A DNA stretch of 64,000 nt from Eucommia ulmoides (Eukaryota; Streptophyta; Magnoliopsida; Garryales; Eucommiaceae), in the NCBI GenBank assembly GCA_016647705.1, contig CM028335.1, forward strand, positions 37,330,712 through 37,394,711. Direction: 5' to 3'. The position numbers and the translations under genes were made by a program. Under the pieces are notes generated by a model, which was given only the letters and a program-made list of their open reading frames with translations, did no database searches and was not told the DNA's origin. Below, piece by piece: positions 9,833 to 57,500 of this stretch. Positions within the stretch are counted from its first letter, which is position 1, and the number at the start of each line of letters is the position of its first letter.

Positions 9833-10713
9833 AAGTTGATTTTCGCAGCTCGGTGCATGAACTGGTCAAGCAGTTCGGTTGAGCTAAGTTAGGCAGCTCA
9901 ACTTATGAATGAACTAGGCTGGGTAGTTTAGTTTGTGAGTGAAATGGTCTAGGAAGTTTGTCAGAGCTGAACTAGGGAGCTTAAATCATGAATGAACTGG
10001 GATGGGTAGTTTAGTTCATAAGTGAACTAATCTAAGCAGTTCGAAAGAGCTGAGCTAGAAAACTTGAATTATGAATAAACTAGGTTGGGCAGTTCAATTC
10101 ATAAGCGAACTAATCTTGGAAGTTCGAGTGAGCTGAGCTAGGAAGATCGGATTATGAATGAACCAGGCTAGATAGTTCAGTTCATGAGCGAACTAATCTA
10201 GGCAGTTCGACTAAGCTAAGCTAGGAAGCTCGGATATGAATGAATTAGGCTAGATAGTTCAGTTCATGAGCGAACTGATCTAGGCAATTCAACTAAGTTG
10301 AGCTAGGAAGCTCGAATATGAATGAACTGGGTTGGGTAGTTCAGTTCATGAGTGAACTAATCTAGGCGGTTCGACTAAGCTACGCTAGAAAGCTCGGATA
10401 TGAATGAATTGTGCTGGGCAGTTCAATTCATGAGTGAACTGATCTAGACGGTTCGACTGAGCTGATCTAGGAAGCTCAGATATAAATAAACTAGGCTGGG
10501 CAGTTCAGTTCATAAGCGAACTAATCTAGGTAGTTCGAGTGAGTTGAGCTAGGAAGCTTGGATTGTAAATGAATTGGGCTAGGCAGTTCAGTTCATGAGT
10601 GAACTGATCTAGGCAGTTCGACTCAGCTGAGCTAGGAAGCTCAGACATAAATGAACTGGGCTGGGCAGTTCAGTTCATGAGCGAACTGATCTAGGCAATT
10701 CGACTAAGCTGAG
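9833..10713. repeat. 82-bp tandem repeat array of the Tat element
   Basis: The marker 'ttcagttcatgag' recurs at 10176, 10258, 10340, 10422, 10504, 10587 and 10669, giving a period of 82 bp (one step of 83). Units contain related sub-blocks ('ctaggcagttcgactgag' and 'ctaggaagctcggatatg'), suggesting an older, shorter unit. About ten units lie here. The array resumes at 14715 after an inserted element. Tandem repeats between coding region and 3' LTR are common in Tat/Ogre-type elements. Confidence 0.9.
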
Positions 10714-14714: not shown

Positions 14715-14935
14715 CTGAGCTAGGAAACTTGAATTATAAATGACCTGGGCTGGGTAGTTCAGTTAATAAGCAAACTGATCTAGGCAGTTCAACTGAGCTA
14801 AGCTAGGAAGCTCTAATTATGAATGAACTGGGCTAGGCAGTTCAGTTGGGCTAAGCTTGGCAACTCAATTTTTAAATGAGCTGATCTTGGTAGCTCAGTT
14901 TATGAACGATCTAATCTAGGAAGTTTAGTTTGGTC
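14715..14935. repeat. Continuation of the Tat 82-bp array
   Basis: About three units ('gggtagttcagttaataagcaaactgatctaggcag' type) resume directly after the Athila-like insertion and fade after 14930. This confirms the insertion split one array. Confidence 0.8.
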
Positions 14936-23693: not shown

Positions 23694-23694
23694 A

Positions 23695-23710
23695 TTGGTA
23701 TCCGAGTTGG
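23695..23710 (+). promoter_or_regulatory. Element A primer-binding site
   Basis: TTGGTATCCGAGTTGG directly follows the LTR. It resembles the TGGTATCAGAGC site complementary to initiator tRNA-Met used by many plant Copia elements. Confidence 0.75.
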
Positions 23711-23744
23711 TTTAGCTCGAATCTATTTTGCTAACAAAGATCAC

Positions 23745-25216
23745 ATGGCACACATAATAGGTACACTAGCTGAGAGGCAGTGCACTAACCACCCTTGTTT
23801 GCAGGTGAAAGTTACTCGTTTTGGAAAGACAAGATGATAGTCTTTCTTCAGGCTACAAATTATGATGTGTGGCTAAAAATCTAGGATAGTCCATTCATTC
23901 CAATGGAAAACGGAGTTGAGAAGAAGAAGGAACAACTCACTGTTTCCGATAAGCAGAAACTCTCTATTAATTCTCAAGCTATCAATATTCTCTTTTGTTC
24001 TTTAGATACTAATGAGTATTCTAGAGTTTCAGGTTGTAAATCCGCAAAAGAGATGTGGGATAAGCTACAAGTCACCCACGAAGGGACAAGTCAAGTGAAG
24101 TAGTCAAAAATCAATGCACTTATGAGAAAATTTGAGTTGTTCAGGATGGAGGAGAATAATTCAATTCATGAGATGTACACTCGCTTCAACAACATATGTA
24201 ACAGTATGAACCAACTTGGAAAACCATACTCCATGAAGGATAGAGTACGAAAGGTCCTAAGGTCCTTGACGAAAATATAGGAGTCAAAGGTGACGGCAAT
24301 CAAGGAAGCCAAGGATCTTGGCAAATACGACATCGATGATCTAATTGGTAATTTCATTACTCATGAATCGGCGATTAAAGGCTACAAGGATGATACCGAA
24401 AATAGCAAGAGGAAATCCTTGACACTAAAAGTTCAAAAAATTGAAGAAAATGATAACAGTGATGATGAAAGCCTTGATAATGAGCAAGACAAGAATGTAT
24501 CACTTCTCACAAAAAAATTTAGAAGAATGACTTGGTGCACATTCTATGGGAAAATAAATCTCAACATGTCCAAAGTGGAATGCTACAACTGCCATAAAAC
24601 CGGTCATTTTCAAAATGATTGTCCCGAACCAAAGAAGGATAAACAAAAGGAAAAGAAGAAGAAATAAAAGAAGAAAGTAAAGAAGAGTAAGAAGAAATTG
24701 ATGAAGGCTACCTGAGATGATACCAATTCAAGTAGCTCAGAAGAATCAAATAGTGAGGATACGTCCATGCTTGCATTAATGGCCACTGGTGGTAAGGTAA
24801 CCGATTGTTCAAGTTCATGGACTTTAAATTTTGATGAATTGTTTGATGTTTATCAAGAACTTTCACATGATTATAAAAACCAGTGTTCTAAAATAAATGC
24901 CATTCAAAGTACAATTAACATATTAAACAAGCAAGTGGTGAATTATGAATTTGAAAATAATGGGTTGAAATCTAAATTGATGAATTTGCAATCAATTGTT
25001 CTCAAATTTACTGGCTGTGAAAACAATTTGAAAATTCTTTTGGGAAGTTCACGTAGAGTTTTTGATAAAGCCAGTGTTGGATTTCAGAAAAATCTTAAAC
25101 AAAAACGCTTTCAAAAATTCTTTTCTGAAACCAAGGATCTTATTAGATGTTTTAAATGTAATATTGTGGGGCATACTATTCGTAGATGTTTTGCAAAATT
25201 ATCTAACAGTAGATAA
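23745..25216 (+). pseudogene. Element A gag
   Basis: Starts MAHIIGTLAERQ. It has a copia gag core (KLSINSQAINILF, SAKEMWDKLQVTHEGTSQVK, VTAIKEAKDLGKYDIDDLIG), a lysine-rich tract, and a first zinc knuckle CYNCHKTGHFQNDC near 24580. A coiled-coil region and a second knuckle CFKCNIVGHTIRRC near 25150 follow. Two knuckles separated by a coiled coil fit the SIRE/Maximus-type gag. Stops at several sites (for example after TSQVK) make it non-functional. Its role was capsid assembly and RNA packaging. Confidence 0.75.
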
Positions 25217-25323
25217 GTTTGGGTTCCAAAAAGAACTAAAATTGTCCCGACTAACAAGATCGGACCCACGTAGGCTATGTACCACTTAGGAACTATTTGA
25301 GATGCTCCTTGTAGGTTATTCTA

Positions 25324-28300
25324 AAAGTATCAATAAGTAAGGACAAATGGTTCCTAGATAGTGGTTGTTCTCGACACATGACCGGAGATAAAGGAAAATT
25401 TACATCTTTCACAGCTAAAGATGGAGGTCATGTGACTTTAGGAGACAATGCGAAGGGTAAAATTATCGGTATAGGTAATATCGGAAATGGTACTACTAGG
25501 ATTAAAGATGTGTTACTAGTTGATGGACTTAAACATAATTTGCTTAGTATTAGTCAACTTTGTGACAAGGGCTATAATGTTATATTTGATCATGATAGAT
25601 GTATCATTAAAAATAGTCACGATAGTAGTATCTTGTTAATTGCATCACGTTTTGAGAATGTGTATACTTGCTCTTTTGATGATTTTAATTCTCAAAATTT
25701 ATCTTGTTTGAATGATTTATCTGAAAATAGTTGGTTATGGCATAGAAGACTTGAGCATGCTAGTACAGAGTTAATTTCTAACTTATCTAAGAAGAGTCTT
25801 GTACGTGGCCTACCTAATTTGAAATATGTGAAAGATAAAATATGTGATGCATGTCAATTAGGCAAGCAAGTTAGATCATCATTTAAGAAAAATATGCACA
25901 CGTCTATGTCTAGATGTCTTGAATTATTGCATCTTGATTTATTTGGGCCTAACTCTGTTGCTAGTTAGGGTGGTAAGTTTTATGCATTTTTCATAGTTGA
26001 TGATTATTCTAGACTTACCTGAGTATATTTTCTTGCCAAGAAAAGTGAGGTTGCTTCCGTTCTTGCTAAATTTTGTAAACGTGTTCAAAATGAGAAGCAA
26101 TGTTCTATCATTAACATTCGTAGTGACAGAGGAAGATAATTTAAGAATGATGAAATGGTAAGTTATTGTGATGAGCATGGTTATGCTCACAACTTTTCTG
26201 CACCAAGATCACCTCAATAAAATGGTGTAGTGGAAAGGAAGAACAGAACGCTTCAAGAGATGGCCAGAACAATGCTAAATGAAAATTGTTTACTAACCTA
26301 TTTCTAGGCTAAAGTAGTAAGTACCGCTTGTCATGTTGTAAACCAAGTATTAATTCGTAGAGGTTTTAACAAAATCCTATATGAAATCTGGAATGGTAAG
26401 ACTCCTAATATTTCTTATTTTAAAGTCTTTGGATGCAAATATTTTATTTTGAATGACAAGGATAATCTTGGTAAATTTGATGCTAAATCCGATTATAGAA
26501 TTTTTCTTGGATATGCTACTAATAGTAAGGTTTATAAAGTTTATAATAAACGTACTTTAGTAGTGGAAGAAACTATGCATGTTATTTTTGAGGAAGTTGA
26601 TCTATACTTGTCGAGAAAGGTTTTGGATGATGATGATGCAGGTATCTTAAAGAACCAAAACTAAGGTAATGATGTACCAAAGGAATCTTACCAAAAGGAA
26701 GAACCTAAGGAGAAGGATTCGACTTTACCAAGAGCTATAAAGAAAGTACCAGGACATTCAATTAAAGAAATCATCGGTAATTTCGAAAAAGATGTAAGTA
26801 CTCGATCTTCTCTTAGAGATATAATCAATCTTACTTTCTTATCTCAAATTAAGCCTAAAAATATAAATGAGGCATTAATTGATGAATCTTGGATTTTCGC
26901 AATGTAAGATGAATTAGTTCAATTTGAGCAGAACAAAGTATGGTGTCTTGTTCCAAGATCGGATTTTCATCCAGTTATTGGTACTAAATGGGTATTTAGA
27001 AACAAAAATGATGAATCTGGTATGGTAATTAGAAATAAAGCAAGATTAGTGGCACAAGGTTATAATCAAGAGGAAAGAATTGATTATGATAAAACTTATG
27101 CTCCTGTTGCTAAACTAGAAGCAATTAGAATGCTACTCGCCTTTACATGTTCACGTAATTTTAAGCTATATCAAATGGATGTAAAGAGTGTATTTCAAAT
27201 GGTTTTCTAGCTGAAGAAGTTTATGTGGAACAACCCTCGGGATTTGAAAGTGATAAATTTCCCGATCATGTATTTAAACTTCGCAAGGCTTTGTATGGGC
27301 TCAAATAATCTCCGAGAACTTGGTATGAAAGACTTAGCCGATATTTGATCGAAAATAGTTTTCGAATGGGTATTTGTGATATTACACTATTTGTTAACCA
27401 AACTGATTCTAATATCCTATTAATACAAGTATATGTTGATGATATCATTTTTTTAATCTACTAATGAAGATCTTTGCCAAGAGTTTGCTAAGATAATGCG
27501 GGTTGAATTTGAAATGAGTATGATGGAAGAGTTGAATTTCTTTCTTGGTTTGCAAATTAAGCAAACCAAATAAGGGAAATTTATAAACCAAGCTAAATAC
27601 ACCAAGGAGCTATTAAAGAAATATAGCTTGGAAGGAGCTAAAGAGTACAAAACTCTCATGGCAATGGCTACAAAGATAGACAAAGATGATACAGGTAAAA
27701 GTGTTAATAAAAAAATGTATCGAGGTATGATTGGTAGCCTGATGTACTTAACTACAAGTAGACCTGAGATTATGTATAGTGTTTGTTTATGTGTTAGATT
27801 TCAGTCTTATCCTAAAGAATCACACTTGACTGCGATTAAGCAAATTTTTCGATATTTAAAGGGGACGATTGACCTAGGATTACGGTATCCTAGGGAGAGT
27901 GATTTTAAATTAATAAGTTACTCCGATGTTGATTTTTCCAGTTGCAAAGTCGAGAGAAAAAGCACAAGTGGGTCATGTCATTTGTTAGGACATGCTTTGG
28001 TTTCTTGGTTAAGCAAGAAACAGAATTCGATAGCCTTATCTACTATTGAGGCTGAATACATGGCAGCTGGTAACTGTTGTGCTCAAATTTTATATATTAA
28101 GTAACAGTAAAATGATTTTGGAGTTTGAATGGAGGAGGTCTCGATCTTGTGTGATAATAAAAGTTCTATATGTCTAAGTAAAAATCTTACACAGCACTCA
28201 CGAACTAAGCACATAGAGATTAGACATCATTTTATTCGTGATCACATTCAGAAAAGGGATATTATTATTGAGTATATTGATACCTCCGACCAGCTTACTA

Positions 28301-28392
28301 ATGTTTTTACCAAACCACTAGCAGAAGATCAATTTGTGAAAATCATTCGCGGTTTGGGTATGGCTAGGTATAATGATGTTTGTCTAGACTAA
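25324..28392 (+). pseudogene. Element A pol: protease, integrase, RT, RNase H
   Basis: Protease motif WFLDSGCSRHMTGD is at 25345-25390. The integrase zinc domain has WHRRLEHAS...CDACQLGKQ (25735-25870), and the core has LHLDLFGP, IVDDYSRLT and NGVVERKNRTL (25930-26255) with stops. RT has WVFRNKND (from 26989), YAPVAKLEAIRMLLAF (from 27097), YVDDIIF (from 27430). RNase H has SYSDVDFSS, STIEAEYMAA and DNKSSICLSKN up to 28210, then IEIRHHFIRD. Domain order is Copia type. Many stops look like C-to-T or G-to-A changes, as in LK*SPRTW where CAA became TAA. Confidence 0.8.
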
Positions 28393-28717
28393 GTTACATG
28401 TGTTGTGTTCCCCCCTCCCTCCTACATTTGTTTTTGAAGATGACAAAGGAGAAAAAATTAGTGATGTTTTATTAAGGGGGAGTAAGTAATGTTTTATTAA
28501 GGGGGAGTATTCTAAAATTGTGTTTTAATCAAAAGGGAGAAATTTAAAAAACAATTGTTGTGCTTTATTGAGTACTTTTAAATTATGCATTATTGAAATC
28601 TTCATTATGATACTTTAACGAGTTAAAGAACCCGTCCTCGGATTCAGGAAAAGTGTGGTTATATTTTATTTTGAAGAAAACATCAAAGTTAATTGTCATC
28701 ATCAAAAAGAAGGAGAT
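28393..28717 (+). other. Element A 3' untranslated region and polypurine tract
   Basis: No env-like frame. A short duplication 'atgttttattaagggggagta' appears twice (28464-28510), giving two purine-rich tracts. The final tract aaaaagaaggagat abuts the LTR. Confidence 0.7.
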
Positions 28718-30829
28718 TGTTGATCCTAAGATTTTTATGAACAATTAAGTGTTGATATTTTGGTGGAACTAATGTTTAATTGAGTGTTTCAGAGATTTAA
28801 AGTTCTAGTGATGAAGACGTCAAATTGAATGGATGTTAAATGAAGATATCAAGATGATGAAGAGGAATTAAGAGTTTGAAGAAATTAGAGAAAACAACTC
28901 AGATAAATCTTAACTCTTAATATCCCATTTTGGAACACACACATGGCACAAAATAAATTTTATCTTTATGTATGTTTTGGTTAAGTGTAATTATTTGCTT
29001 CTATGTGAATTGAAAAGAAATATTTTTGAATGACTAAAATGGAATATAAGAATATTAGTGGAGCTTATTTAAAGATAAAAATAGATAAAGGGACAAAAAA
29101 GTAAAAGAAAGTGAGTAAAAAACGAGTTCAGAGAAAAGATCCAGAAGAGAGAAGTCGACTGAGGAGTCAACCGGCCAATGGGGGCTGAACTCTCTGAATC
29201 GAAGAGTCGACCGACAGGTCGATCGATGAAAACAACTGAACTCTCTGAATCGAAGAGTCGATTGACAGGTCGACCGGTGAAAGCATGACAAACTATCTGA
29301 ATCGAAGAGTTGACCGAGCGGTCAACCGATGAACTACATGGACTACTTCCAATATCTTTCAGTCGACTGGACAGTCGACTTAACACGTAGTTTCAGGATA
29401 CTGTTTGATCTGAGTTTAAATCCAAAAGTAGTCATTTTTTGTTAGAATTTAAGAGAGATTTCAGAGATATTCTCTATATTTAAGATATGGTTTATATACT
29501 AATTAAATCCTTTCAATATGGTTCATTAAATATTAATGTTTCTCAATTTGATACTTAAAATGGATTCTATACTTATTTATTTTGATTAAGAAATACTTTG
29601 GGATTTAATTGAGTTTTTTGAAAGTTGTTATTTAGTGAAATTGAACTTAAATGAAGTCCTTATTTTATAAGGGATCTATAAGAGCTTTTTATTGTCGTGA
29701 CACTTGTAAACTAGTCGTTTGAAGGTTAATTACATGTTCCTTTAAATAGATCTGCGAATTTTATTAAAAAAGCTAATCACTCAAAGAGAGTTAATCATTC
29801 TATACCATTTTGAGAGAGCTTTTACAAGAGTTAGTATTCTACGTTATTGTAAGTTATTTTAAGAGTGATTCTGATAATCAATTGCGATCTATTCTTGTTG
29901 ATACCAGATTTGAAGCTATATTGTTCTGATCATTATTTCTGTGGATTCCGGGTGAAATCTTTTCATATTATTCATTGTTTATTATTTTATATTTTGGAAA
30001 TTAATCTTAGAAATTGTTTTTGATTTTTGAAGAAAATAGTTTTTCAAATAATTTCTTAAATCTGATTACGTGTTCTAATTTACTACCCATATTCTTGTTA
30101 AAATCAGATTTCTGTATCTCACATATTTCTATCAGTAGTTGGGATATTAATTGAGTTTTTATTTATCTAGGTGGTAGTAGTTCCAAGTGAGATTTACTAC
30201 TTATCAATTTTTGTATTGGTGAGTTGTGACGGGTTAAATATCATTGGGGATATTTAATCAAATGTAGCTGGGTTTCAGTCTCTTCCTGGAAAGAGATTGA
30301 GGTATTAATTCTTCCTGAATAAAATTAGTGTAAGTGATTTGTAAAGGTTCCATCCTTACCTGATAAAATGATAGTTTGAGTGTTTGTGAGAGGTTTTGAT
30401 TTTTAAGCCTTAGTGTTAAAAAGAATTAGGTTATTCTTTAGCCAGTAAAAAGTAGAGCTTCTTCTTTAACCTGAGAAAATAAAATTGTAAAGGTTGATTT
30501 CAGCCTATAAAAGAATTGATGTGTGGATTTGGTTCCTACCTTTAAAGGGATCTTAAGAATTAGTGGGTACGAATCTACGTGGGGCTCAGAGGACTGGACT
30601 AGCCAAGAGTAACTTAGTGAACCAGGATATATCTTGGTGTGCTATATTGTTAATTTGTTTATTTTTGTTGTTTGGGTATGCACGTAGATTAATTATAATC
30701 CCGTTGTAGTATAAAGATAATAATTAATTTAGTTATAAAATTAATTATTTGATTTATTCAAGTTTTATTCTGATATATTTTTTTAATTATCCAATTCACC
30801 CCCCTCTTGGGTATTCAACTGGGCCAACA
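28718..30829 (+). repeat. Element A 3' LTR
   Basis: 2112 bp, same termini and internal repeats as 21606-23693. Its TATA-like TTTAAATA is at 29741. Confidence 0.92.
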
Positions 30830-32125
30830 GTCTTTTTGTCACAACAGAAAACAGGGTCGAGAAGAAGAAAGAGCAGCTAACTGCTTCCGATAAGCAGAAA
30901 CTTTCTATAAACTCTCAAACTATTAATATTATATTTTGTTCTTTAGATACTAATGAATACTCGAGAGTTTCAGGTCATAAATCGGCAAAGGAAATATGGG
31001 ACAAGATACAGGTTACCCACGAAGGAACAAGTCAAATGAAGCAATCGAAAATCAATGCTCTTATGAAGCAATTTAAATTGTTCAAAATGGGATAAATGGA
31101 ATCGATTTAAGAGTAGTACACTCGATTTAACAACATTTGCAATCAGTTGAGTCAACTTGGAAAGTCATACACCATGGATGATAGAGTTCGAAAGGTCTTG
31201 AGATCTTTAACAAAAATATGAGAACCAAAGGTGACTTCAATTGAGGAAGCTAAGGATCTTGTCAAATACGAAATTGATGACCTCATAGATAACTTGATGA
31301 CGCATTAAATAGTGATTCGATGATATGAGGATGACACCGAAAATAGAAAGAATAAATCCTTGGTGATATAAGCTCAGAAAACTGAAGAAGATGATGACAC
31401 TGATGATGAAAGTCTTGACAGTGAGCAAGAGAAAGACATGGCACTTTTCACAAAGAATTTTAGAAAAATGACTCGGCGTACATTTCGTGGGAAAAGAAAC
31501 TTCAACATGAACAATGTGCAATGCTACAACTGTCATAAGTCCAGTCACTTTCAAACTGATTATCCTAAACCGAAGAAGGATAAAGAAAAGAAAAAGAAGA
31601 AAAAATGAAAGAAGAGTAAGAAGAAGTCTATAAAGACTACTTGGGATGATACTGAATCAAGTAACTCAAAAAATCAGAAAGTGAAGATACGTCCATATTT
31701 GCATTGACTGCCACTGGTGGTAAGGTAACAAAATGTTCAAGTTTTTGTCCTTTAGATTTTGATGAATTATTTTATGTTTATCAAGAACTTTCGCTTGATT
31801 ATAAAAACTAGTGTTCTAGAATAAATGTTCTTCAAATTACAATTAATACATTAAACAAGCAATTAATGGACTACGAATATGAAAACAATGAATTGAAATC
31901 CAAGATTTTGGATTTACATTCAATTGTTCTCAAATTCACCGGTGGTGAGAATAACTTGAAAATGCTTTTAGGAAGTTCACGTGGTATTTTTTATAAAGCC
32001 GGTATTGGGTTTCAGAAACATCTTAAACAAAAACATTTTCATAAATTCTTTTCTGAAGCTAGAGGTCTTGTTAGATGTTTTAAATGTAATATCGTGGGGC
32101 ATACTATTCGTTGATGTTTTGCTAA
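30830..32125 (+). pseudogene. Element O gag, second fragment
   Basis: Continues O gag after element A. The homologous order to A is clear: LTASDKQKLSINSQTINIIF, KEIWDKIQVTHEGTSQMKQS, a zinc knuckle CYNCHKSSHFQTD in which the last Cys reads Tyr (near 31530), the coiled coil, and a second knuckle CFKCNIVGHTIR followed by a stop. Several stops are present. Confidence 0.7.
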
Positions 32126-32239
32126 AATATCTAACTGTAGACAAGTTTGGGTTCCAAAATGAACTAAAATTGTCCCGACTAACAAGATTGGACCCATTTA
32201 GACTGGGTACCACTTAGGAACTATTTGAGGTGTACCTTG

Positions 32240-34922
32240 CAGGTTATTCTAAAAGTATCAATAAGTAAGGACAAATAGTTCCTGGACAGCGATTGTTCTC
32301 GACACATGATGGGAGATAAAGAAAAATTCACATCTTTGACACCTAAGGATGAAGGTCATATGACTTTTGGAGACAACGCAAAGGGTAAAATTATTGGTAT
32401 TAGTAATATCGGTAATGGTACTACTAATATTAAAGATGTGTTATTAGTTGATGGTGTTAAATATAATTTGCTTAGTATTAGTCAACTATATGACACTGGT
32501 TATAATGTTGTATTTGATCATAATAGGTGCATTATTAAGAATAGTCATGATAGTAGTATCTTGTTAGTTGCATCACGTTTTGAGAATGTTTATACTTGTT
32601 CATTTGATAACTTTACTTCTCAAAATTTATCTTGTTTGAATGCTTTATCTGAAAATAGTTGGTTATGGTATAGGAGACTATGGCATGCTAGTATGGAGTT
32701 AATTTCTAATTTATCTAAGAAGAGTCTCGTACGTGGCCTACCTGATTTGCAATTTGTGAAAGATAAAGTATGTGATACATGTCAATTAGGCAAGCAGTTT
32801 AGATCATCATTTAAGAAAAAGATGCACACATCCACGTCTAGATATCTTGAATTGTTGCATCTTGATTTATTTAGTCCAAATTTTGTTGTTAGTCTTGGTG
32901 GTAAGTTTTATGCTTTCGTAATAGTTGATGATTATTCTAAACTTACCTGGGTATTTTTCCTTTCCAAGAAAAGTAAGGTTGCTTCTGTATTTGCTAAATT
33001 TTGTAAACGTATTCGAAATGAGAAGTAATGATCTATTATTACCATTCGTAGTGACAAAGAAAGCGAGTTTAAGAATGATGATGTTGTTAGTTATTGTGAT
33101 GAGCATAGTTATGCTCATAATTTCTCTGCACCAAGATCACCACAACAAAATAGTGTGGTGAAAAGGAAGAACAAAACGCTTCAAGAGATGGCCAGAACGA
33201 TACTTAATGAAAATCGTTTACCAACCTACTTCTAGGACGAAGCAATAAGTACAGTTTGCCATGTGGTGAATCGAGTATCGATTCGTAGAGGGTTTAACAA
33301 AATCCCATATGAAATCTGGAATGGTAAAACTCCTAACATTTCTTATTTTAAAGTATTTGAGTGTAAATGCTTCATTTTGAATGACAAGGATAATCTAGGT
33401 AAATTTGATGTTAAATCTAATTATGGGATTTTTCTTGGATACGCTACTAACAGTAAAGCTTATAAAATTTACAATAAACATATGTTAGTAGTAGAGGAAT
33501 CTATGCATGTTATATTTGAGGAAGCTGGCCTATTTTTGTCGAGAAAGGTTTTGGATGATGATGATGCATGTATTTCAAATAACCAAAACCAAGATGATAA
33601 TACGACTAATTAGTCTCAAAAAGAGGAGGAGGCTAAGGAAGAGGATTCGACTTTACCACGAGCTATAAAGATAGTACCAGGACATTCGTTAAAAAAAAAA
33701 AAAATCATTGGTAATTTCAAAAGAGGTGTAAGTGTTTGTTCCTCTCTTAGATATATAATTAATCTTGCTTTCTTATCTCAAATTGAGCCTAAAAATGTAA
33801 ATGAGGCGTTAACTGATGAATCTTGAATTTCCACAATACAAGATGAGTTAGTTCAATTTGAGCGGAACAAAGTATGGTGTCTTGTTCCGAGACCGGAATT
33901 TCATCCAGTTATTGGTACAAAATGGGTTTTTCAAAATAAAAGGGATGAATCTGGAATGGTAATTAGAAACAAAGCAAGATTAGTAGCACAAGGCTATAAT
34001 CAAAAGGAATGAATTGATTATGATGAAACCTATGTTCTTGTGGCTAGATTAGAAGTAATTAGAATGCTACTCGCTTTTTGCATGCTCACGTAATTTTAAA
34101 CTATATCAAATGGATATTAAGAGTGTATTTCTAACTGGCTTTCTAGAGGAAGAAGTTTATGTAGAACAGCCCCCGGGATTTGAAAGTGATAAATTTTTCG
34201 ATCACGTATTTAAACTTCATAAGGCTTTGTATGGGCTCAAACAAGCTCTTAGAGCTTGGTATGAGAGACTTAGTTGATATTTAATCAAAAATGGTTTTCG
34301 AAGGGGTATTTGTGATATAACACTATTTGTTAAGCAAACTGATTCTGATATCCTATTAATACAAGTTTATGTTGATGATATTATTTTTGGATCTACTAAT
34401 AAGGATCTTTACCAAGAGTTTGCTAAGATAATGCAGGTCGAATTTGAGATGAGCATGATGGGAGAGCTGAATTTCTTTCTTGGGTTGTAAATTAAGAAAA
34501 CCAAATAAGGGATATTCATAAACCAAGCTAAATACACCAATGAGATGTTAAAGAAATATGGCTTGGATGGCGCTAAAGAGTACAAAACTCTCATGGCAAT
34601 GGCTACAAAGATAGACAAAGATGATACGGGCAAAAGTGTTAATGAAAAAATGTATCGAGGTATGATTGGTAGCCTGATGTACTTAACTACAAGTAGACCT
34701 GATATTATGTATAGTGTTTTTTTATGTGTTAGATTTCAGTCTTGTCCTAAAGAATCACACTTGACTGCGGTTAAGCAAATTTTTTGATATTTAAAGGGGA
34801 CGATTGACCTAGGATTACGGTATCCTAGGGAGAGTGATTTTAAATTAATAAGTTACTCCGATGTTGATTTTCCAGTTGCAAAGTCGAGAGAAAAATCACA
34901 AGTGGGTCATGTCATTTGTTAG
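32240..34922 (+). pseudogene. Element O pol, truncated in RNase H
   Basis: The protease motif survives as DCSRHMMGD near 32310, with earlier Gly changes. An open stretch at 32306-33028 covers protease end, integrase zinc domain and the start of the core (LHLDLF, IVDDYSKLTWVFF). RT motifs follow (YVDDIIFGS near 34370) with many stops, one at the QGYNQKE region. Homology with A ends after 'gtcatttgttag' in RNase H, where the LTR of C begins at 34923. Confidence 0.75.
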
Positions 34923-37012
34923 TGTTGATCCTAAGATTTTGATAACAATTAAGTATTGATATTTTGATGGAACTAATATATAATTCAGTATTTCAGTGAT
35001 TTAAAGTTCTAGTAATGAAGATGTCAAATTAAATGGATGAGAAATGAAGATGTTAAGATGATAAAGAAGAATTAAGAGTTTGAAGAAATTAGGAAAACCA
35101 ATTCAGGTGAATCTTAACTCTTAATATCCCATTTAGGAACACACACATGGCACAAAATATATTTTATCTTTTATGTGTGTTTTGATTTAGTTAAATTATT
35201 TGCTCCTATGTGATTTAAAAAGAAATAATTTTGAAAATATAAGAATATTAGTGGAGTTAATCAAGAGAAGAAAATGGTTAAAGGGGCGAAATCGTAAAAG
35301 AAAATGACGTAAAAATGTATTCAGAGAAGATATCCAGTGACAATAATCGACTGGTGAGTCGACCGGTGAAAGAAGATTGAACTCTCTGAATCAAGGGGTC
35401 GACTGATAGGTCGACCGATGAAAGAAGGAAGAACTCTCTGAATCTATAAATCGACCAGGCGGTCAACCGATACAGCGATAACTTGGCTATAACCTGAATT
35501 GGGCAGTCGACTGAACACGCTGTTTCAGAATACTGTTTGATTCGAGATTATATCCAAAAGTAGCCATTTTTTGTTAGGATTTGAGAAAGATTTCGGGGAT
35601 ATTCTCTATATTTAAGATATGGTTCATATATTAATTAAATTCTATTAATATGGTTCATCAAATATTAATGTTCCTCAATTTAGTACTTGAAATAGATTCT
35701 ATTCTTATTAATTAAGATTGAGAAATACTTTGGGGGTTTAATTGAGAGATTTGAAAGCAGTTTTTAAGTGAAAATTGAACCAAAATGAAGTCCTTATGAT
35801 ATAAGGGGTCTATAAGAGCTTTTAATTGTCATGACACATGTAAACTAGCCGTTATAAGGCTGATTTCATATTCCTTTAAATAGACCTGTGATTTCATACA
35901 TCGTTAAGCAGTAAGAAGAGAGAGAAATAATATATTATCAAGAGAGATCAGAATATATTAATTGAGTGAGATTTTCTAAGAGATATCTTATTGAGAATTG
36001 AGTGAGCTATTCTAAGAGTGATCTTGAAGATTAATTGTTGTTAAATATTTGCTACTATCGAATCTGAAGTAACATTGCTTATCTAATTATTCTGTGGATT
36101 TCGGTTGAGATATTTCTAATTATATTCTTTCATTGCATTATTTGATTATTATTTGAAAATTGATCTTAGAAATTGTTTATGATTTTTTAAGAAAATATTT
36201 TTACAAACAATTTCTTGAATCTGATTGCGTGCTCCAATTTGCTACCCATATCTAATTAAAATCAGATTTTTGTATCTCACGTTTTTCTATCACTAGTTGG
36301 GATATTAATTGAGTTATTATTTATCTAGGGTGGTAGAAGTTCTGAATGAGATTTCCTACTTATCATTTTGTATTGGTGAGTAGTGTGATGGATTAAATAC
36401 TGTTGGGGGTATTTAATCAAGGGTAGCTAGGTTTCAGACTCTTCTTATAAAGAGATTGAGGTAGTAATTCTTCTTGGATAAAATTAGTTTAAGTGATTTG
36501 TAAAGGTTCCATCCTTACCTAGAAAAAGGATACTTGGAGTATTTTGTGAGATTTTGATTCTTGAGCCTTAGAGATAAAAAGAATTGGTTAATCTTTAGTC
36601 TGTGAAAAGATAGGTTATTCTTGAACCTGTAAAAAGTAGAGGTTATTCCTGAGTCTTGAAAAGAAAATTGTAAAGGTTGATTCTGAGCTTGTAAAAGAAT
36701 CGGTGTGTGGGTTTAGTTCCTACCTTTAAAGGGATCTTGAGAATTATTGGGTGTAAATCTCCATGGGGCTCGGAGGACTGGACTAGCCAAGAGTAGCTTG
36801 GTAAATCAAGATATATCTTTGTGTACTACAATATTCACTTTGATATTTTTGTTGTTTGGGTGTGCACTTAGATTGATTATATTATTCCGTTGTATTATAA
36901 AGATAATAATTAATTTAGGCTTAAAATTAATTATTTGATTTATTCAGTTTTATTCTGATTATCTTTAATTACCCAATTCACCCCCCCTCTTGGGTATTCT
37001 ATTAGGCCAACA
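34923..37012 (+). repeat. Element C 5' LTR inserted into O RNase H
   Basis: TGTTGATCC...AGGCCAACA, 2090 bp, closest in sequence to the A LTRs rather than to the O LTRs. It is followed by ATTGGCATTAGAGCTGG, an initiator-Met-type primer-binding site, so it is a 5' LTR and not a solo LTR. No matching 3' LTR of this subtype is found downstream. Confidence 0.85.
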
Positions 37013-37081
37013 ATTGGCATTAGAGCTGGTTTTAGCTCGTTAGGCTTCACATCCTAGCTAAATCGATCACGTGCACACACC

Positions 37082-38606: not shown

Positions 38607-40906
38607 TGTTGATCCTAAGATTTTGATGGACAATTAAATGTTAATATTTTTTGTGAAATTAACAATTTTATTGAATGTTTCAGTTTATTAGTTCCAGTGA
38701 AGAGATTATCATGAAGATATTGAGAAAAATGCTAAATGGATGCTAAAGACATTGACAAAGATGATGCATGTTAAGAGATCGAATAATTTGAAGAACCTAG
38801 GGGAAAACAACTCAAGTTAAATTTTTACTCTTAATGTATCCCGATTAGGATCACACATGACACAAAATATTTTTACAATTATGTGTATTTTTTATAGGAT
38901 CCTAATTAGCTAACAAATTTGCTCTTATGTGTAATTGAAGAAGAAATATTGATTTAAAAAAGATAAAATTTGAATTTAAAGATTTAGTGAAGTTAACCGA
39001 GAAACGAAATCGGTTAAAGAGGCAAAATATCAAAGAAATTTAGTAGAAAATTAATTAAGAAGAGGTGTTCCAATAGGGTCGGTAAACCGATCAACATGGA
39101 TCGGTCAACCGATGGAATGGAACTGGGAAGAAGATTTAGTCCCTGAATTGTTCGGTCAACAGGTAGGTCGACTTATGGAAATGAGACAAACTCTCTGAAT
39201 TTTCTGGTTGACAGGTAAGTCGACTTATGGTTAAAATGTGAACTTTCTGAATCGTTAGGTCGATAGGTAAGTCGACTTATTAAACTCTCTGAATCGTTCA
39301 GTTAATAGATATAAAATGAGCGGTCGACTTATGATGAAGGAATTTTGGCTTGGACTACATCCTGAATTGGGCGGTCGACCGATGGATGTTGGTCGGTTAA
39401 CCGATGGCCAGTTTCAAGATTTGAGATTTTTATGGTTTTGATCCAAAAACTATCCATTTTATGGTTAAGATATGTAAGATATCTTAGGGATCTGATAGTT
39501 TTTTAGCCATTTTGTTAATATTTTAATATCCCTATAGATATGGTTCAAGTATTTTGGATATCTCTCAATTTCATTCATGAAATTCTTTTTATCTTATTTA
39601 ATTGAGATTAAGTATAAGTTTAAGGGACTAAATTGAATGTTTTAAAAGATATAATTAAGTGAATTATACCAAGAATAGGTCTTAATGATATAAAGGGGCT
39701 ATTGGAATAATTATTTGTCATAAAATGTGGGAACTAGCCGTTAGAGGGCTTGTTCTAATCCCCTATAAATAAACCTGCGTTTTTTAGGTTTAAAAAATCT
39801 CATTCTGAAGAACTATTCAGTTCTTGTGCTTTCTAAGAGTTATCATACTAAGAGTATTGTGAGAATTTTCTAGAGAATCATTCTTGAGATATTTTAAAGT
39901 AGATTATTGTTGATTGCCAACTTGAGGTTTTATTGCTTATCATATTTATCGGTGGATTCCTGGTGAGATTATTCCAAATTGATTACTATTAATTGATTAT
40001 TTACTATTATCATATTTACTTGGAATTTGATCTTTGAAATTGTTTTCCTGTTTTTAAATTGAAAATTATATTTGAAACAATTTCTTAAGAAAATCTGATT
40101 ACGTGCTAAATTGCTTGCTACCCATTTTTTGTTTAAAATCAGATTTTGAATTTCTCACTATATTTTTATCACTAGTATCAGGACATTAATTGAGTTTAAA
40201 TTTATCTGAGGTGATAGAAGCTTTGAGTTAAAAAATCACTTATCAATTTTGCAATTCGCGAGTTGAGTGTCGGATTAGATATTATTAGGAGTGTCTAATC
40301 AGTGGTAACTGGTTTCAATCTCTTCCGGTAAAAAGATTGAGATTTTGATTTTTGCCTAGAGTATAAAAAGATTAGGTGTTAATTATTCCTTGATATAATT
40401 CTTTTGAGTGATTTTGTAACAGTTCAATCCTTACCGAGTAAAAAATATTTGGAGCGTTTTTGTAAGGTTTGATTCCTAGCCTAAATATAAAAGAATTAGG
40501 TTAATCTTTAACCTATGAAAAAAAATAGGGTTATTCCTGAGCTTGTGAAAAGAAATTATAAAGGTTGATTCTTGGTCTGCTAAAAGAATCGTTTTATAAG
40601 GGTTTGGCTCCTACCTAGTTAAAGGGATCATAGTGATTAGTGAGTGCTACTCTCCGCGGAGCTCGGGGGATTAGATTAGCCAAAAATAGTTTGGTGAATT
40701 AGTATAAATTTCTGGTGTATTACATTCTTTTATTTATTTATTTTTGTATTGTTTAATGTGCACCTAGTTGATACTTAATTTTTGTTGCTATATAGATAAT
40801 AATTAATTTAGGGTAAAAATTAATTATTTGATTTTTAAAGTATTTTATTTGAATTAAGTTTTATTTACCCAATTCACCCCCTCTTAGGTAGCTCACTGGG
40901 CCAACA
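38607..40906 (+). repeat. Element O 3' LTR
   Basis: 2300 bp, matches 19082-21402 from its first bases (GATGGACAATTAAATGTT), so it is not a C/O hybrid at its start. TATAAATA is at 39764. CAATC follows. Confidence 0.9.
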
Positions 40907-48500: not shown

Positions 48501-51500
48501 AGAAGAAATATAGCTTATTGACAAATCGACTGGTATTCTTGGGTTATGTTTTCAGTTTTGAAAGAATTCATCTAGATGACGAGAAGTTTTGTGCCATGCG
48601 AGAATGGCCTATGTCCAAGACGTCACTGAAATCCATAGTTTTCATGGACCCGCCATTTTTTTATTTGCTATTTATTCGAAATTTTAGCACTATCATGGCT
48701 CCAATTACTGTATGCTTGAAGAAAAGAAAGTTCAATTAGGGTGACGAAACAAAGCGTAGTTTTGCACTAATTAGGGAGAAACTTTGCACAACTCCAATTT
48801 TGGCCTTACCAAGCTTTGAGAAAATATTCGAGGTGGAGTGCGATGCAAATAATGTTGGGATTGGGGTTGTGTTGTCTCTGCAAAATCAACCAATAGCTTT
48901 CTTTAGCGAAAAGTTGAGTGAATCAGAAGCTTGACAAAAGTGGAGCATTTATGATAAGGAAATCTATGCAATTTTTCGTGCTCTAAAATAGTGGGAAAGT
49001 TACTTGATCCAACGAAAGTTCGTGCTTTATATTGACCACCAAGCCATGAAGTAGCTTTAAAAGGGAAAAAAAAACAAAACATTTGGATGGCATACATGCA
49101 AGGTGGGAAACAACCTTACAGAAGTTTCAATTTGTCATCAAACACAAATCTGGAATGGGGAACAAGATTGCAGATGCTTTAAGTCAAAGAGCTAGTTGTT
49201 GATTACACTATCCCATGAGATTATTGGGTTTGAGTGTTTAAAGACGCTTTACAAAGAAGATGATTTTCATGAAGTATGGACAAATTATATGTAAAGTTAA
49301 CCAGTTAGAGACTATCGCGGGAATCTTTTTAAGGGTAATCACTTATGTGTTTCCAAGTCATCTTGAAGGGAGAAGTTGATCCAAGATATTAATGGTGGAG
49401 GTCTTGCTGGTCATCTGGGGAGAGATAAAACAATAGCAGGAGAGGTTTTACTGGCCACATTTGAAGGAGAATGACAACAATTTCATGAAAGATGCTATAA
49501 TTGTCAGACTTCGAAAGGTCAGTCCCAAAATACTGGCCTTTTTATGCCTTTGCCTACTCCTGAAAATATATGGGAAGATTTATATATGGGTTTTGTGTTG
49601 GGCTTACCTTGCACACGACTAGTAGATCCCGTACTTATAGTGGTCAATAGATTTTCAAAAATTGCTATTTTTTCTACCTTGTCAAATGACATTTGATGCC
49701 TCCCTTATAACACGACTATGCTTTAGGGAAATAGCACGTCTTCATAGTTTACATTGTTCCATTACCTCAGATCAAGGCACAAAATTTATGATTCATTTTT
49801 GGATCACCTTGTGGAAAAGGTGTGATACTACTTTGAACCTTAGTTCCACCGCCCATCCACAAACTGGTAGCCAAATTGAAGTGACTAACAGGGCTTTGGG
49901 TAATCTGGTCTGAAGCATTTGCCAAGGTCATGAAGTCTACCCAAAAATCTCCACTATCACAAATAATGGGAATACAAGTCCTCTCTAGTTCCAACGAGAG
50001 GTATGCAATCGCAATACTTCAAGATCAAACGAACATTGACATTAAATAAGATCTACAAGAAGAGAATTAAAGAGATCTTACCACAAGAGGTTCAAAATAA
50101 CCTTGTAACAGTCCCGCCGAAAATAGTGGCTGCCAAACTCAAAACGTGATCTCCACCGTTCAGATTATAAAGCTCTAAGTCGCAAACTTGTTATCCAAAT
50201 TTCAGCCCAATCGGACGGCGGATCGACCTCCGATTGACGTCCAATCGGAATAGTGTAATGGGGGTTTGAAATGGACAGTTTTCTCTCTTCCTCTCTCTCT
50301 TCTGCGACTGTTCTATTTTTTTCCCACTCTAAAGGCTGATAAAAAAATTTAGAACAATTGAGGTTTGAAAATAGGCTCAAGTGAAATTACCATTTTGCCC
50401 TTTGGCAATTTCCATAAGCCTAACCAACTTTGTTGGGCCTCTCCACATTTAGGAAAACCAAAGCCCAACATATTTATTGGATATGGCCAAAATGAGTTCG
50501 GTTTTAGGTTTTATGATCCGGTACAGAAGAAACTTGTAAGAAGCCGAGATGTTGTGTTCATGGAAAACCAGACCATACAAAACATTGAGAAGATAGATGA
50601 AATGGTGCCTCAAAATTATGATGATTTGGTTGACTTGGATCCAGTTCCTCTGACACAAGTGCCACGCCTGTTAGAGATGGTATTCAGGACAATCAGTTGA
50701 GTCCAGGTGATGCCGATACTTCGTTAGAGGATGAGACTAATCATGAGTCTCTTGATCAGCTGCAAGTACCACAAACACCACCAGAAGCTCCACTCAGGAG
50801 GTCTACCAAAGACCAAAATCCTTCCACTCGGTATTCCGCAGATGAGTACGTGTTGTTGATTGACGGGGGAGAACCCGAGTGTTATGATGAAGCCATGAAA
50901 GATGAACATAAGAGAAAGTGGATTGAAGCCATGCAAGATGAGATGTAGTCATTGTATGAGAATTACACTTTTGAATTGGTGAAGTTACCTAAGAACAAAA
51001 GAGTTTTGAAAAATAGGTGGGTTTATAGGGTAAAGCAGGATGAATATACTTCACTGCCATGATACAAAGTTAGATTAGTTGTCAAAGGATTCAACCAGAG
51101 GAAAGGTATTGATTTGGAAGAAATTTTCTCTCCACTTGTGAAAATATCTTCTATTCGTGTTGTTTTTGGCTTAACAACTAGCCTGGACTTGGAGATTGAA
51201 CAAAGGGATATGAAAACTGTTTTTCTTCATGGTGACTTGGAGGAAGATATTTATATGGAGCAACCAGAGGGCTTCAAGGCAAAAGGAAAAGAGGATCATG
51301 TGTGTCGGCTGAAGAAAAGTCTTTATGGTTTGAAACAGGCACCTAGACTCTGGTACAAGAAGTTTGAGTCGGTTATGGGGGGAGCAAGGCTACACGAAGA
51401 CTACTTTAGATCATTGTGTATTTGTGCAAAAATTCAGTGATGGTGATTTTATCATCTTATTGCTTTATGTTGATGACATGTTGATTGTTGGCAAGAATTC

Positions 51501-54500
51501 CTCGAGAATTGACAAATTAAAGAAGCAGTTAAGTAGGTCTTTTTCTATGAAAGACTTGGGGCCCGTAAAACAGATTCTTGTATTTGAATTTATCGAGATA
51601 GAAACGAGAATAAATTATTTATTTCACAGGAATAGTACTTTGAAAAAGTGCTTGAAAGATTCAATATGAATAAGGCTAAAGTGGTTAGTTCCCCTCTTGC
51701 TACTCACTTTAAGCTAAGCACTAATCAATGTCCTTCTACAAACAAAGAGAAGGAAGACATGGAAAGAGTTTCATACGCCTCAGCAATTGGAAGTTTAATG
51801 TATGCAATGGTTTGCACGAGGCCAGATTTAGCTCATGCAGTTGGTGTAGTCAGCCGATTTCTTTCAAATCCAGGATGAGAGTATTGGGATGCAGTGAAAA
51901 GGATAATGAGGTATTTTCGAGGCACTTCCAAGCTGAGACTCAGTTTTGGAAATGGAAAGTCAGTGCTGGTAGGCTACATAGATGTAGATATGACAGGAGA
52001 TGTGGATGCCCGTAAGTCTACTTTGGGTTATTTGATTACTTTCACAGGTGGGGCTGTTTCGTGGCAGTCAGGGTTGCAAAAATGTGTTGCACTTTTTACA
52101 ACAGAGGCAGAATTCATTGCAGCTACAGAAGCCTTGCTAGGAGTTGTTATGGATGAAGAAGTTCTTGATAGAACTTGGCTTCAATCAGGAGCAATATGTG
52201 TTATTCTGCGATAATCAAAGTGTTATCTATTTGGCGAAGAACTCTGCATTTCATTCGAGATCGATGCACATTGATGTGAGTTACCATTGGATAAGAGAAA
52301 CTCTTAATGACAAGTTGTTAAAACTTGAGAAGATTCACACGGATGATAATGGTGTCGATATGTTAACGAAGGCTTTAGCAAAAGGAAAGTTTGAGACTTG
52401 TTGCTCGATCACTGGAATGAAGAATCTCCACATAGTTGGAAAGGGGGAGATTTGTTGGGCTTTGGTTTTCCTCAATGTGGAGAGGCTCAACAAAGTTGGT
52501 TAAGTTCATGGAAATTGCCAAAGGGCGAAATGGTAATTTCACTTGAGCCTATTTTCAAACCTTAATTGTTCTGAAATTTTTTGTCAGCCTTTAGAGTGGG
52601 GAAAAAAATAGAGCAGCCGCAGAAGGGAGAAAGGAAGAGAGAAAGCTACCCATTTCAAACCCTCATTGCATTGTTCCGATCAAACATCGATCGGAAGTCA
52701 ATCCGCTGTCCGATTTGGTTGAAATTTGGATAACAAGTTCGCGACTTGGAGTTCTACAATTTGAATGGTGGAGATCGGGTTTTGAGTTCGACAGCCACTA
52801 TTTTCGGCGGGACTGTTACGAGATTATTTTGAACCTCTTGTGGTGAGATTTTTTCAATTCTCTTCTTGTAGATCTTGTTTATTGTCAAGGTTGGTTTGAT
52901 CTTAAAGTATTGTAATTGTATGTCTCTAGTTGTAACTAGAGAAGACTTGTATTCCCATTATTTGTGATAGTGGAGATTTTTGGGTGAACTTCGGTCCCGT
53001 GGTTTTTACTCCTCGCCTTAGGAAGGTTTTCCACGTTAAAATCGTTTGTCTCGTGTGATTATGATTGTGGTGTGTTGATTCAAGTATCACTCTAATTTAA
53101 TTCCTACAAGGTTCATACAAAAAAAGGGATAAAATTGATTTCCGTTGAGCGTACTTATTCGATAAATTATTTCGAGTAAGTTGTTTTATCCCATCAAAAT
53201 ATGCATTGTGTCGCGTTTTGACATCAAGTTTGGACCTCTCATCTTTGGGAATATGCACAAAATCCTTGCGTCCAAAGACTTGTAAGTGATTGTAAATAAT
53301 TTCCTTTCCTGACCAAACTTTATCTAGAACATCAAACTCCAAGGGAACACATGGTGTAAGATTCAACACATGTACAACTGTGCTCAAAACCTCACCCCAA
53401 AAAGATCTTGGTAACTGTGCTTGTGAAAGTAAACATTTCACCCTTTCAACTAGCGTTTTGTTCATTCTCTTTGTCAAACCATTCGACTGAGGAGTTTTTG
53501 AAGGTGTCTTTTGGTGACAAATGCCTTGTTGTCTGCAGTAATCATCAAAGGGACCCGAATACTCACCGCCGTTATCTGTTCTGATACACTTTAGCTTCTT
53601 CCCAGTCTGTCTCTCAACTGTGGCCTGAAATTGTTTGAACACATCTAACACTTGATCTTTAGTCTTCAAGGTATAAACCCACATCTTCCTTAAGTGATCA
53701 TCTATGAAAATCACAAAATAGAGAGCACCACCCAGAGTTTTTGTTTTCATAGGACCACAAACATCTGAATATACCAAATCAAGTATATCTTGTTTTCTTG
53801 AAGAAGAGGACGACTTGAAGACGACTCTGGTTTGCTTTCCCGCCAAGCAATGAGCACACTTCTTCAAATGTGCATTCTTCATTCCTGAAAGGAGATTCTT
53901 TTTGGCCAAAACCATCAACCCTTTCTTACTCATGTGACAACTTCTTGTGCCGAAGCTCAATTGTGCCTTCATTTTCGACCATGTTGATATTGTAATTCGA
54001 AATCTTTGCTTGCATGAAGTACAAGGAAGAACACTTCTTCCCTCTAGCCACAACTATGGAACCTTTAGTGAGCTTCCATTGACCAACACTAAAGGTGTTG
54101 CAAAACCCTTCATAATCAAGCTTGCCTGTAGAAATCAAATTCAAGCAGATATCCAAAATGTGTTTGACATTTTTCAAGACCAACATTTTACTATTATTGG
54201 TCTCCAAGCACATGTCCCCAATGCCAATAATTTTTGCCAAACCATCATTTCCTATCTTCATTGTCCCAAAGTCACCAGCGGTATAGGAAGTGAAGAAATT
54301 CTCTCGAGATGTAGCATGAATAGAGGCGCCACTATCAATGACCCAATTGGTCTCATGACATGCTAGATTAATAACATCGTCATCGTAAATACGAGAAAGT
54401 CTTTGGAAGTAGTAATGGCGACAACCCGATCATCCTCCTTTCCTTCATTATTCTTATTCTCATTCTATTTTTCCTTGTTCTCTTTCTTCAATTTTCTACA

Positions 54501-57500
54501 GTATTTCCTAATGTACCCCTTTAAGCCACAATGATGGCACTCCACATTAGCGAACTTGTTGGACTTACTTCTGCCTTGATATCTATTCTTTAAACCTCTG
54601 CTCTTGCTCCTCCTCCTATTTTCTAGTAACCAAGATGTCCGACTCTGAAGAAGAACCATGTGATTTTTTTCTTCGTTCAAAATACTGCTTTTGGCAAAGT
54701 TCATATTGATTATACCGTTAGGAGTTGAATTACAAATCGATGTTCTGAACGTTTCCCAAAAGTTCGGCAAAGTACCAAGTAATCATAACCCACGAATCTC
54801 TTCATCGAACTTGATGCCCATTCCATCTAGCTGATTAATTAATCCTTGAAATGTGTTCAAGTGATCTGTCAGTGGAGTTCCGTCTTGGTATCTCAAACTC
54901 ATCAATTTATGTATCAAATACATTTTATTGTTTCCCGTCTTCCAGACATACAACTCCTCAAGTTTAGTCCAAAGTGTACGTGCATGTTTCTCTCCATCAA
55001 TGTGGTTCAAAACTTTATCATCCACCCATTGTCTAATGTATCCACATACTTTCCGATGTAGCAAGTTCCACACTTCATCGGATTTATTTTCTAGCTTTTC
55101 AGTGGCAAATACCAGTAAATGAAGTTCGTTCGCATAAAGAAGATCTTCCATTTTTCCTATCCAAGTGTGATAATTAGAACCATTTAAAATAATCATTCTC
55201 CTCAAATTTGCTTTCATTGTTCAACACAAGATATTTGACAAAACCAACCTTGTTCTGATACCAATTTGATGGGATAAAACAACTTACTCGAAATAATTTA
55301 TCTAATAAGTACGCGCAACGGAAATTAATTTTATCCCTTTCTTGAGTGAACCTAGTAGGAATTAAATTAGAGTGATACTTGAATCAACACACCGCAGTCA
55401 CAATCACACGAGACAACCGATTTTAACATGGAAAACCTCCCTGAGGCGAGGAGATTTGCTTATAATAGTGTGGTTCACAGTGCTACAGGAAAGTCACCGT
55501 TTGCTGTGATTTATGTCTCACCCCCTCGACATGCTGTTGATCTGGTCTGGTTACCATAAAGGAGGCTGCAGATAAAGCATAGGTGGCAGAAATGGTTTGA
55601 AGGTGACTCGGCCATCGTTTTCTTGCATAAGGAGAGGTTTCCAGTGGGGACTTACAAGAAGTTAAAGCCGATGAAATATGGTCATCACAAAATCTTGAAG
55701 AAACTCAATGATAATGCTTACATAGTGGATTTGCCTGAAGATATAGGAATTTCTCTCACTTTTAACGTGGTTGATCTCTATGAATTTCATGCTGAGGAGT
55801 CTCTTATTATTAATACAACTTGAGGACGAGTTCTATCCAAGTGGAGGGGACTGATTTGTGACAACTTGCTGAAAAATTCATAGAACAATTGGATCGTTAA
55901 AAGAATAAGAAAAAGGCCCATTAAATTTCATGCCGAGGAGTCTCTTATTATGAATACAACTTGAGGACGAGTTCTATCCAAGTGGAGGGGACTGATTTAT
56001 GACAACTTGCTGAAAAATTCATAGAACAATTGGATCGTTAATTAATACGAAAAAGGCCCGTTAATTAAAGCCCGAGAGTAAGAAGTCCCGTTAGACTTTG
56101 CTTTTCAGAAGTAAGTTTACTTAGTAATTAAGTTTTGTTTCTTACACTTAGTAGCTAGATATTTTATCTACTTAGTAGGTAAGTTTAACTTTACTTAGTA
56201 GCTGAATTTTGTTTATTTAATATTTTATATATTTAGTGGTTAAGTTTCCTGGGTCTATATAAGCACCACCTTGTAAGCTCGTAAAGCATAAAGTTTTGTC
56301 AAGCATTTGGTGTCATACATTCCTTTCTTAAAAACACTGTGTTTGTCTTATGAGGGAGTGTTCAGAGATTTGACGTGATCAATCTCTTTTCTTACGCTTC
56401 TGTTCTGCGTCAACTTACTAGTTTATCTAAACTTTCGGGGATAAAACAAAATTGCACCAGACTTTTTTATAGTGAAGTTCCATTGTGGACGTCAATTCCC
56501 AAAACCCACCAAATTTTCACCAAAAATGAAATTGTAATGAGTACTTTAATCCATATATTCATTGGATTAGAACCAATCTCGACTGGCCGGCCATGAAGTA
56601 TGTCAGCCCAATTCCCGACCACATTGTCCCTGCCAACAATGTTCTCGAGGTTTATGTTGCTAAAGTGTTCTAGAAGAAGGTAGCACCAGGAAATGGGAGG
56701 CTCGGTCCAAGCCAGTGTTGGTATTTATGGTGTTTCGCTGAAACTTGTTTTCCATTAAAGGTCCATTTCATGAAGCTTTTGTGTATTTGCTTTGGTATTG
56801 TGTCGACCAACTTGAATTCAAAAAGGGACAAAAGTCATGAAAATAAGATTTATTTGAAAGAGTCTTCAGCTTGAAAAAAAAAGAAGTACAATTGACAAGT
56901 TCTTGCACCATCAAATTTCTTCAAAAAAAAAGTCTTCAACTTGAAAAAGAAAGAAAGTACATTTGACAAGGTTTGCTAAGTCAATGTGAGTTTCAAAATT
57001 ACCAATTACAATTATGGAGAACAATACTTTCTGGAAAATTTACATTGAATGTTTTGCTTCACCCTTTCTCTTTGTCATTCTCTCCATCTAAATTGTTCTC
57101 TGTGTTTTTTGGTGGCATTTAATCAACCCACTTTTTACTTACGCCATGTGAAGTACCACCAAAAAAACTACTTACGATCACTAGCCGAATTGGCGTTATA
57201 CATTTTCATTTATTCATGCAACATTTCTTTCTGTTAAACACTAAAATAAGGTTTTGAGTGCCTCTTGTTAGCGGATATTTCAATCTGCTTCCGTGCTAGG
57301 GAGGCAAATGTTTCAGATAAAGTTTTGAGAAGCCTCATTTGTTCTTTAAGAGGCACGGAAGATTTTCTAGTTTTAGAAGTGTATATTTTGCTCTACTGTT
57401 TTTAATTATAATTTGCTCCATTAGCACTCAGCCGAGAGGCCCAAGACATGCAGTCTATTCGTGCTGTTGATAATGAGTGTGAAATTATGTTCTCCAATTC

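Follow-up and report, generated by a model that had tools for sequence, protein, structure and literature searches.

At positions 49932-55453 (5522 bp) of a window of 64,000 nucleotides from Eucommia ulmoides, the window being the whole stretch of DNA that was analysed, a retrotransposon lies with one half inverted relative to the other, and the question is how a single element could have come to carry both of its LTR ends at one site within its own integrase gene. A preliminary description, made from the letters alone, took the locus for an inverted product of autointegration. The explanation preferred here, to which as a whole we assign a probability of about 0.88, is a concerted inverting autointegration, with the circle opened in LTR1 and end-joined into a gypsy gene. 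To the first reading the present analysis adds the split LTR with its circle topology, an integrase-free capture, sister copies with an uninterrupted site, and an age.

Anatomy and junctions of the permuted element

From the left, the element begins with the 5' part of LTR1 (LTR nt 1-540; 49932..50470, minus strand; 88% identical to LTR2), whose TG terminus at 50470 adjoins the motif TATTT at 50471..50475 (plus strand; junction 1, copy 1 of the duplication). The C-terminal part of integrase, RT, RNase H and the PPT occupy 50471..52452 on the plus strand, with Pfam matches to SH3_retrovirus (profile positions 38-71) and RVT_2. The PPT (52438-52449, plus strand) was assigned by position and sequence, and RNase H was placed by position and by alignment in sister elements; the RNase H/PPT stretch (52141-52500) gave no match in Pfam. 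LTR2 is complete, with 744 bp from TG to CA (52453..53196, plus strand), and its sequence runs TGTTGGGC...TCCCATCA. Its CA end adjoins 53197, where TATTT recurs on the minus strand (AAATA on the plus strand, 53197..53201; junction 2, copy 2 of the duplication). The N-terminal part of integrase extends over 53197..54053 on the minus strand (Pfam rve and SH3_retrovirus 2-34, with a match to gag_pre-integrs slightly below the Pfam cut-off), followed on the same strand by the protease region, gag and the PBS (54054..55266; Pfam Retrotran_gag_2 and Pol_BBD). The PBS adjoins the 3' part of LTR1 (LTR nt 557-744; 55267..55453, minus strand; 92% identical to LTR2).

Read along the minus strand from 55453 to 49932, the first half gives the LTR1 3' part, PBS, gag, protease, the integrase N-terminal part and TATTT, and the second half gives LTR2 backwards, PPT, RNase H, RT, the integrase C-terminal part, TATTT and the LTR1 5' part. 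By Pfam, gag, Pol_BBD and the integrase core lie on the minus strand and RT on the plus strand, and the SH3 domain of integrase is interrupted at the junction, with profile positions 2-34 on one strand and 38-71 on the other. The integrase/RT/RNase H half is inverted relative to gag/protease, as had been claimed, though only the C-terminal part of integrase lies on the plus strand and its N-terminal part is on the minus strand. The matches to Retrotran_gag_2, Pol_BBD, rve and RVT_2, together with the gag-PR-IN-RT-RH order seen in sister elements, place the element in the Copia superfamily; from motif likeness we take it to be Tnt1-like (Tork/Tnt1 lineage).

Each internal segment matches the window exactly once. 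With the 16 lost bases added and the 5 duplicated bases subtracted, the 5522 bp correspond to a unit length of 5533 bp (5532 bp if the edge is set one base earlier), and the sister elements L010, L012 and L013 measure 5494, 5497 and 5538 bp. The preliminary description was right that every domain occurs once, and the total is that of one element.

The LTR ends at both junctions are true termini, and sister LTRs have ends of the same kind. The earlier claims that both Copia LTR ends are attached at a single site within the integrase gene that the element itself carries, that the TG end abuts 50471 and the CA end 53197, and that TATTT stands at both junctions all held on re-examination; the motif is doubled here and single in 12 sisters with an uninterrupted site. 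Target duplications of 5 bp in the family, judged by eye in 7 of 11 aligned copies, were exact in four, had one mismatch in two and two mismatches in one. Left out were L010, in which the 3' LTR is followed by PBS-like sequence and not by flank, L021 and L028, in which the start of the 5' LTR lies outside the aligned bounds, and L023, a lone 3' LTR.

A normal copy might have been rearranged later by recombination or repair, and plain inversions are, as is generally known, frequent in repeat-rich DNA. Against this, breakpoints that fall exactly on LTR termini, beside a doubled TATTT, are the signature of an integrase, the direct LTRs of one element are unable to invert its interior by homologous exchange, and the outer edges carry neither LTR ends nor a target duplication. 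We regard such an origin as barely credible.

When a 120-base query across junction 1 was compared with the genome, the window alone matched from end to end among 40 scored of 95 candidate places. Of the other 39 scored places, 38 end no more than 3 bases from the junction, and one, on C9, extends 12 bases past it at 84% identity. An artefact of assembly could be suspected, as repeats are prone to mis-joining, but the LTR copies are about 11% different, the structure lies inside a contig of 43.8 Mb with both junctions precise to the base, and a mis-join is not expected to create a 5-bp duplication. This makes an artefact extremely improbable.

The integrase site in sister copies

A search of the genome (947 Mb, 391 contigs) for sister LTRs gave 451 candidates at first look, and 40 of them were scored. 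The 25 regions taken around scored candidates amount to 23 loci, L011/L018 and L019/L020 being one element each; at six of the 23, nothing beyond LTR sequence is present. In 13 sister elements the integrase site can be seen with both of its sides. In 12 of these the site is uninterrupted: the two halves from the window align adjacent to each other, overlapping by exactly five bases, at a single TATTT. The search for normal copies with an uninterrupted integrase site, which the preliminary description had proposed as a check, was thus answered by 12 of 13 sisters. The inverted arrangement itself was absent from all 23 sister loci, including the six with LTR only.

In the 13th sister (L019/L020, on C15) the site region is broken by an unrelated TG...CA insertion of about 9.5 kb (L019 7485-7500 / L020 2630-2645), 3-4 bp from the autointegration site and with near-matching 5-bp flanks (CCGTA / ACGTA). 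Its ends gave no match when compared with the window. A shared target preference is possible, as is coincidence.

Another scrambled copy, L027 4669-7594 on C9, is arranged otherwise than that of the window and was rejected as a second inverted copy; visual inspection shows a solo-type LTR that has TGATT as its target duplication and holds an IN-RT-RH-LTR fragment. It also has a repeated LTR stretch of about 60 bp. At L010 1329 (C16) PBS-like sequence directly follows the 3' LTR, which suggests a tandem LTR-internal-LTR-internal copy.

Garfinkel et al. 2006 are said to provide a precedent in Ty1 for a central polypurine tract or flap near the autointegration site. In the window and the six sisters examined, no purine run of at least 12 was present within 580 bp of the site, and such a tract is not supported.

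The split LTR and the chromosomal insertion site

The preliminary description gave bounds of 49939..55453, of which the right edge was confirmed and the left edge was corrected to 49932. It had also taken the outer edges for LTR ends, which they are not: both break in the middle of an LTR, and the two pieces belong to one LTR. LTR1 breaks off after nt 540 and is taken up again at nt 557, so that nt 1-540 and nt 557-744 complement each other with 16 bp missing, and the two cut points are the outer edges of the insert. That the outer pieces are the two parts of one LTR indicates a product that was topologically circular and got into the chromosome in a second step, independent of integrase. The insert is therefore an inverted autointegration circle in circularly permuted form, with its opening inside the 5' LTR (LTR1).

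According to the available text of PMC4751563, linear cDNA that integrates into itself ends up either as a pair of smaller circles or as a single circle of inverted structure. In the inverted single circle LTR1 would stay whole in a molecule without ends, and opening at one point of LTR1 leaves the split that is observed. Whether LTR1 broke before or after autointegration makes no difference to the final molecule, and either order is compatible with what is observed.

The proposed course of events would begin with a linear cDNA of the Tnt1-like Copia element, whose own integrase would have joined both LTR ends to one internal site in the integrase gene. Joining with a 5-bp stagger in the inverting configuration would yield a two-LTR circle with one half inverted; this chemistry we infer from known integrases, and the anatomy is directly observed. 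The circle would then have broken inside LTR1 with a loss of 16 bp, unless that break preceded autointegration, and a break in a resident Ty3/gypsy integrase gene would have taken up the opened ends, at the cost of about 36 bp of that gene and without a target-site duplication.

One gene flanks both outer edges, which we take from its motifs (a Pfam match to SH3_Tf2-1 on the right side) to be a Ty3/gypsy integrase. Its left part (49437..49931, plus strand) was recognised by homology to L015 and L038, and the pieces of it tested in Pfam gave no match. The reading breaks at the left edge, at the codon before the lost ones, and resumes at FAYN; the right part, from FAYN to SH3, occupies 55454..55820 (plus strand), with SH3_Tf2-1 matching 55560-55820 and codon spacing taken from L038. 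Twelve codons (about 36 bp) are missing relative to L038, the single relative against which this loss was measured and 64% identical on the left side. The gypsy flanks gave 15 and 2 matches genome-wide. Among the relatives examined none close to the window has an uninterrupted site, L038 alone showing one at 64%. L015, a closer relative, shows the continuation just beyond the left edge; it has a deletion of its own near the same codons, with different breakpoints, and was rejected as sharing the deletion of the window. Just outside the insert, at the 3' end of the gypsy element, two direct 141-bp copies (55783-56064) are 94% alike.

When the outer edges were compared, neither shared flank sequence nor a target-site duplication was found, and with no sequence common to the edges there is no sign that integrase made the chromosomal insertion. 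The edges lie in mid-LTR and about 36 bp of the target were lost, which also speaks against integrase at this step. The right edge is ambiguous by 0-3 bases (a possible overlap), and losses of 16 bp and about 36 bp with little or no microhomology are those of capture by end-joining. The circle probably entered the chromosome at a break that was repaired by end-joining, which, judging by breakpoints and losses, would be the simplest pathway. Had a circle entered a resident solo LTR by homologous insertion, two full LTRs would be expected; they were not seen, and this route was discarded.

Exact LTR termini and a 5-bp duplication at an integrase site would equally be produced if the integrase gene of a resident copy had received a second one in reverse orientation, with an inversion between the RT regions and loss of the surplus to follow; nested insertions are known in this Copia family, as in L019/L020, where an unrelated one lies 3-4 bp from the site. 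This course requires an inversion and two deletions that by chance left single segments and unit length. Moreover, the LTR pieces are complementary to within 16 bp and flush with one gypsy gene that misses only about 12 codons, and we hold an origin from two elements to be very improbable. Exact termini at one internal site, the 5-bp duplication with one half inverted, the single set of domains and the unit length therefore lead us to prefer autointegration over the rivals considered, and they support the inverted reading of the preliminary description, which had overlooked the split LTR.

Age and relation to known autointegration products

In a tree of 24 LTR rows, from which the 3' part of LTR1 (LTR1b) was left out, the 5' part (LTR1a) and LTR2 are sisters (97/87) on a short inner branch (0.0098). 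In the same tree five of eight sister intra-element pairs were resolved as sisters, the other three being L010, L011/L018 and L028. The nearest sequence to LTR1b (187 bp) is LTR2 (92.5%), with L010 almost level (92.0%), and for this reason it is chiefly their complementarity that argues for a common origin of the two LTR1 pieces. K2P distances to LTR2 are 0.131 for LTR1a and 0.079 for LTR1b; by inspection of the top rows of the comparison, the 3' part of the LTR appears less diverged from other sisters too. Combined, LTR1 and LTR2 differ by a K2P of 0.117 (726 sites, 63 transitions, 14 transversions), and the eight sister intra-element pairs by 0.136-0.197. The age would be roughly 4.5, 8.4 or 23 million years under three general substitution rates. 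From its LTR divergence the copy has been inherited and decaying for millions of years, and its age implies that such a circle was once present in cells leading to the germline.

In the parts of PMC4751563 and PMC9694575 available, autointegration circles of retroviruses, Ty1 and a fungus are reported as extrachromosomal. The inverted two-LTR product of Ty1 and retroviruses is named '2-LTR inverted Ty circle' in the portion of PMC4751563 consulted, and resembles the present copy in having both LTR ends at one internal site and an inverted structure; that form is extrachromosomal, whereas the Eucommia copy is opened in LTR1 and chromosomally fixed. The yeast data in the same portion contain one mosaic read that fits the truncated-circle class of autointegration and none that fits the inverted class. 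Circles of Magnaporthe oryzae (PMC9694575) likewise point to LTR retrotransposon autointegration, inferred there from LTR-internal split reads, but in the text available they are modelled as extrachromosomal one-LTR circles of various lengths, and a chromosomal copy is not described. For EVD in Arabidopsis epigenetic mutants, the accessible part of PMC10462705 reports plant Copia circles (truncated or chimeric eccDNA) and odd insertions in one genome; the latter are truncated insertions with two LTRs, two of them with clear target duplications, and that part describes no inverted unit-length copy. A plant review states, in the section available, that mechanisms of eccDNA formation in plants remain to be explored (PMC12786077). 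No inherited chromosomal inverted autointegrant was found in the available parts of the literature searched, from which subscription papers mostly fell outside.

On the preferred reading, the locus is a base-resolved record of two steps, a concerted suicide integration by a Copia integrase and then the host's recapture of the circle, which the accessible portions of that literature describe only extrachromosomally or not at all. Its signature has three parts: both LTR termini joined to a single internal site, a duplication of 5 bp, and outer edges that are the parts of one split LTR. Any assembly can be searched for this signature, which makes it possible to measure how often 'dead-end' circles return to genomes.

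Autointegration might not be purely a dead end: break repair might bring inverted circles back into germline chromosomes at a frequency that makes them a separate source of scrambled LTR elements carrying LTR pairs in inverted orientation, and the integrase-gene site, at the midpoint of the cDNA, might in addition be favoured as a target. We put this forward as speculation and consider it unlikely. In three complete sisters the site lies at 0.50-0.51 of the length.

The window holds other repeats. A further family of Copia elements, whose LTRs measure about 2.1-2.3 kb, extends over 19082-40906; within it an apparent LTR-internal-LTR-internal-LTR arrangement of that long-LTR Copia (21606-37039) is nested between the LTRs at 19082-21402 and 38607-40906. 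A tandem array of about 10 copies of an 82-bp unit is located at 9870-10713, with related copies at 14715-14930.
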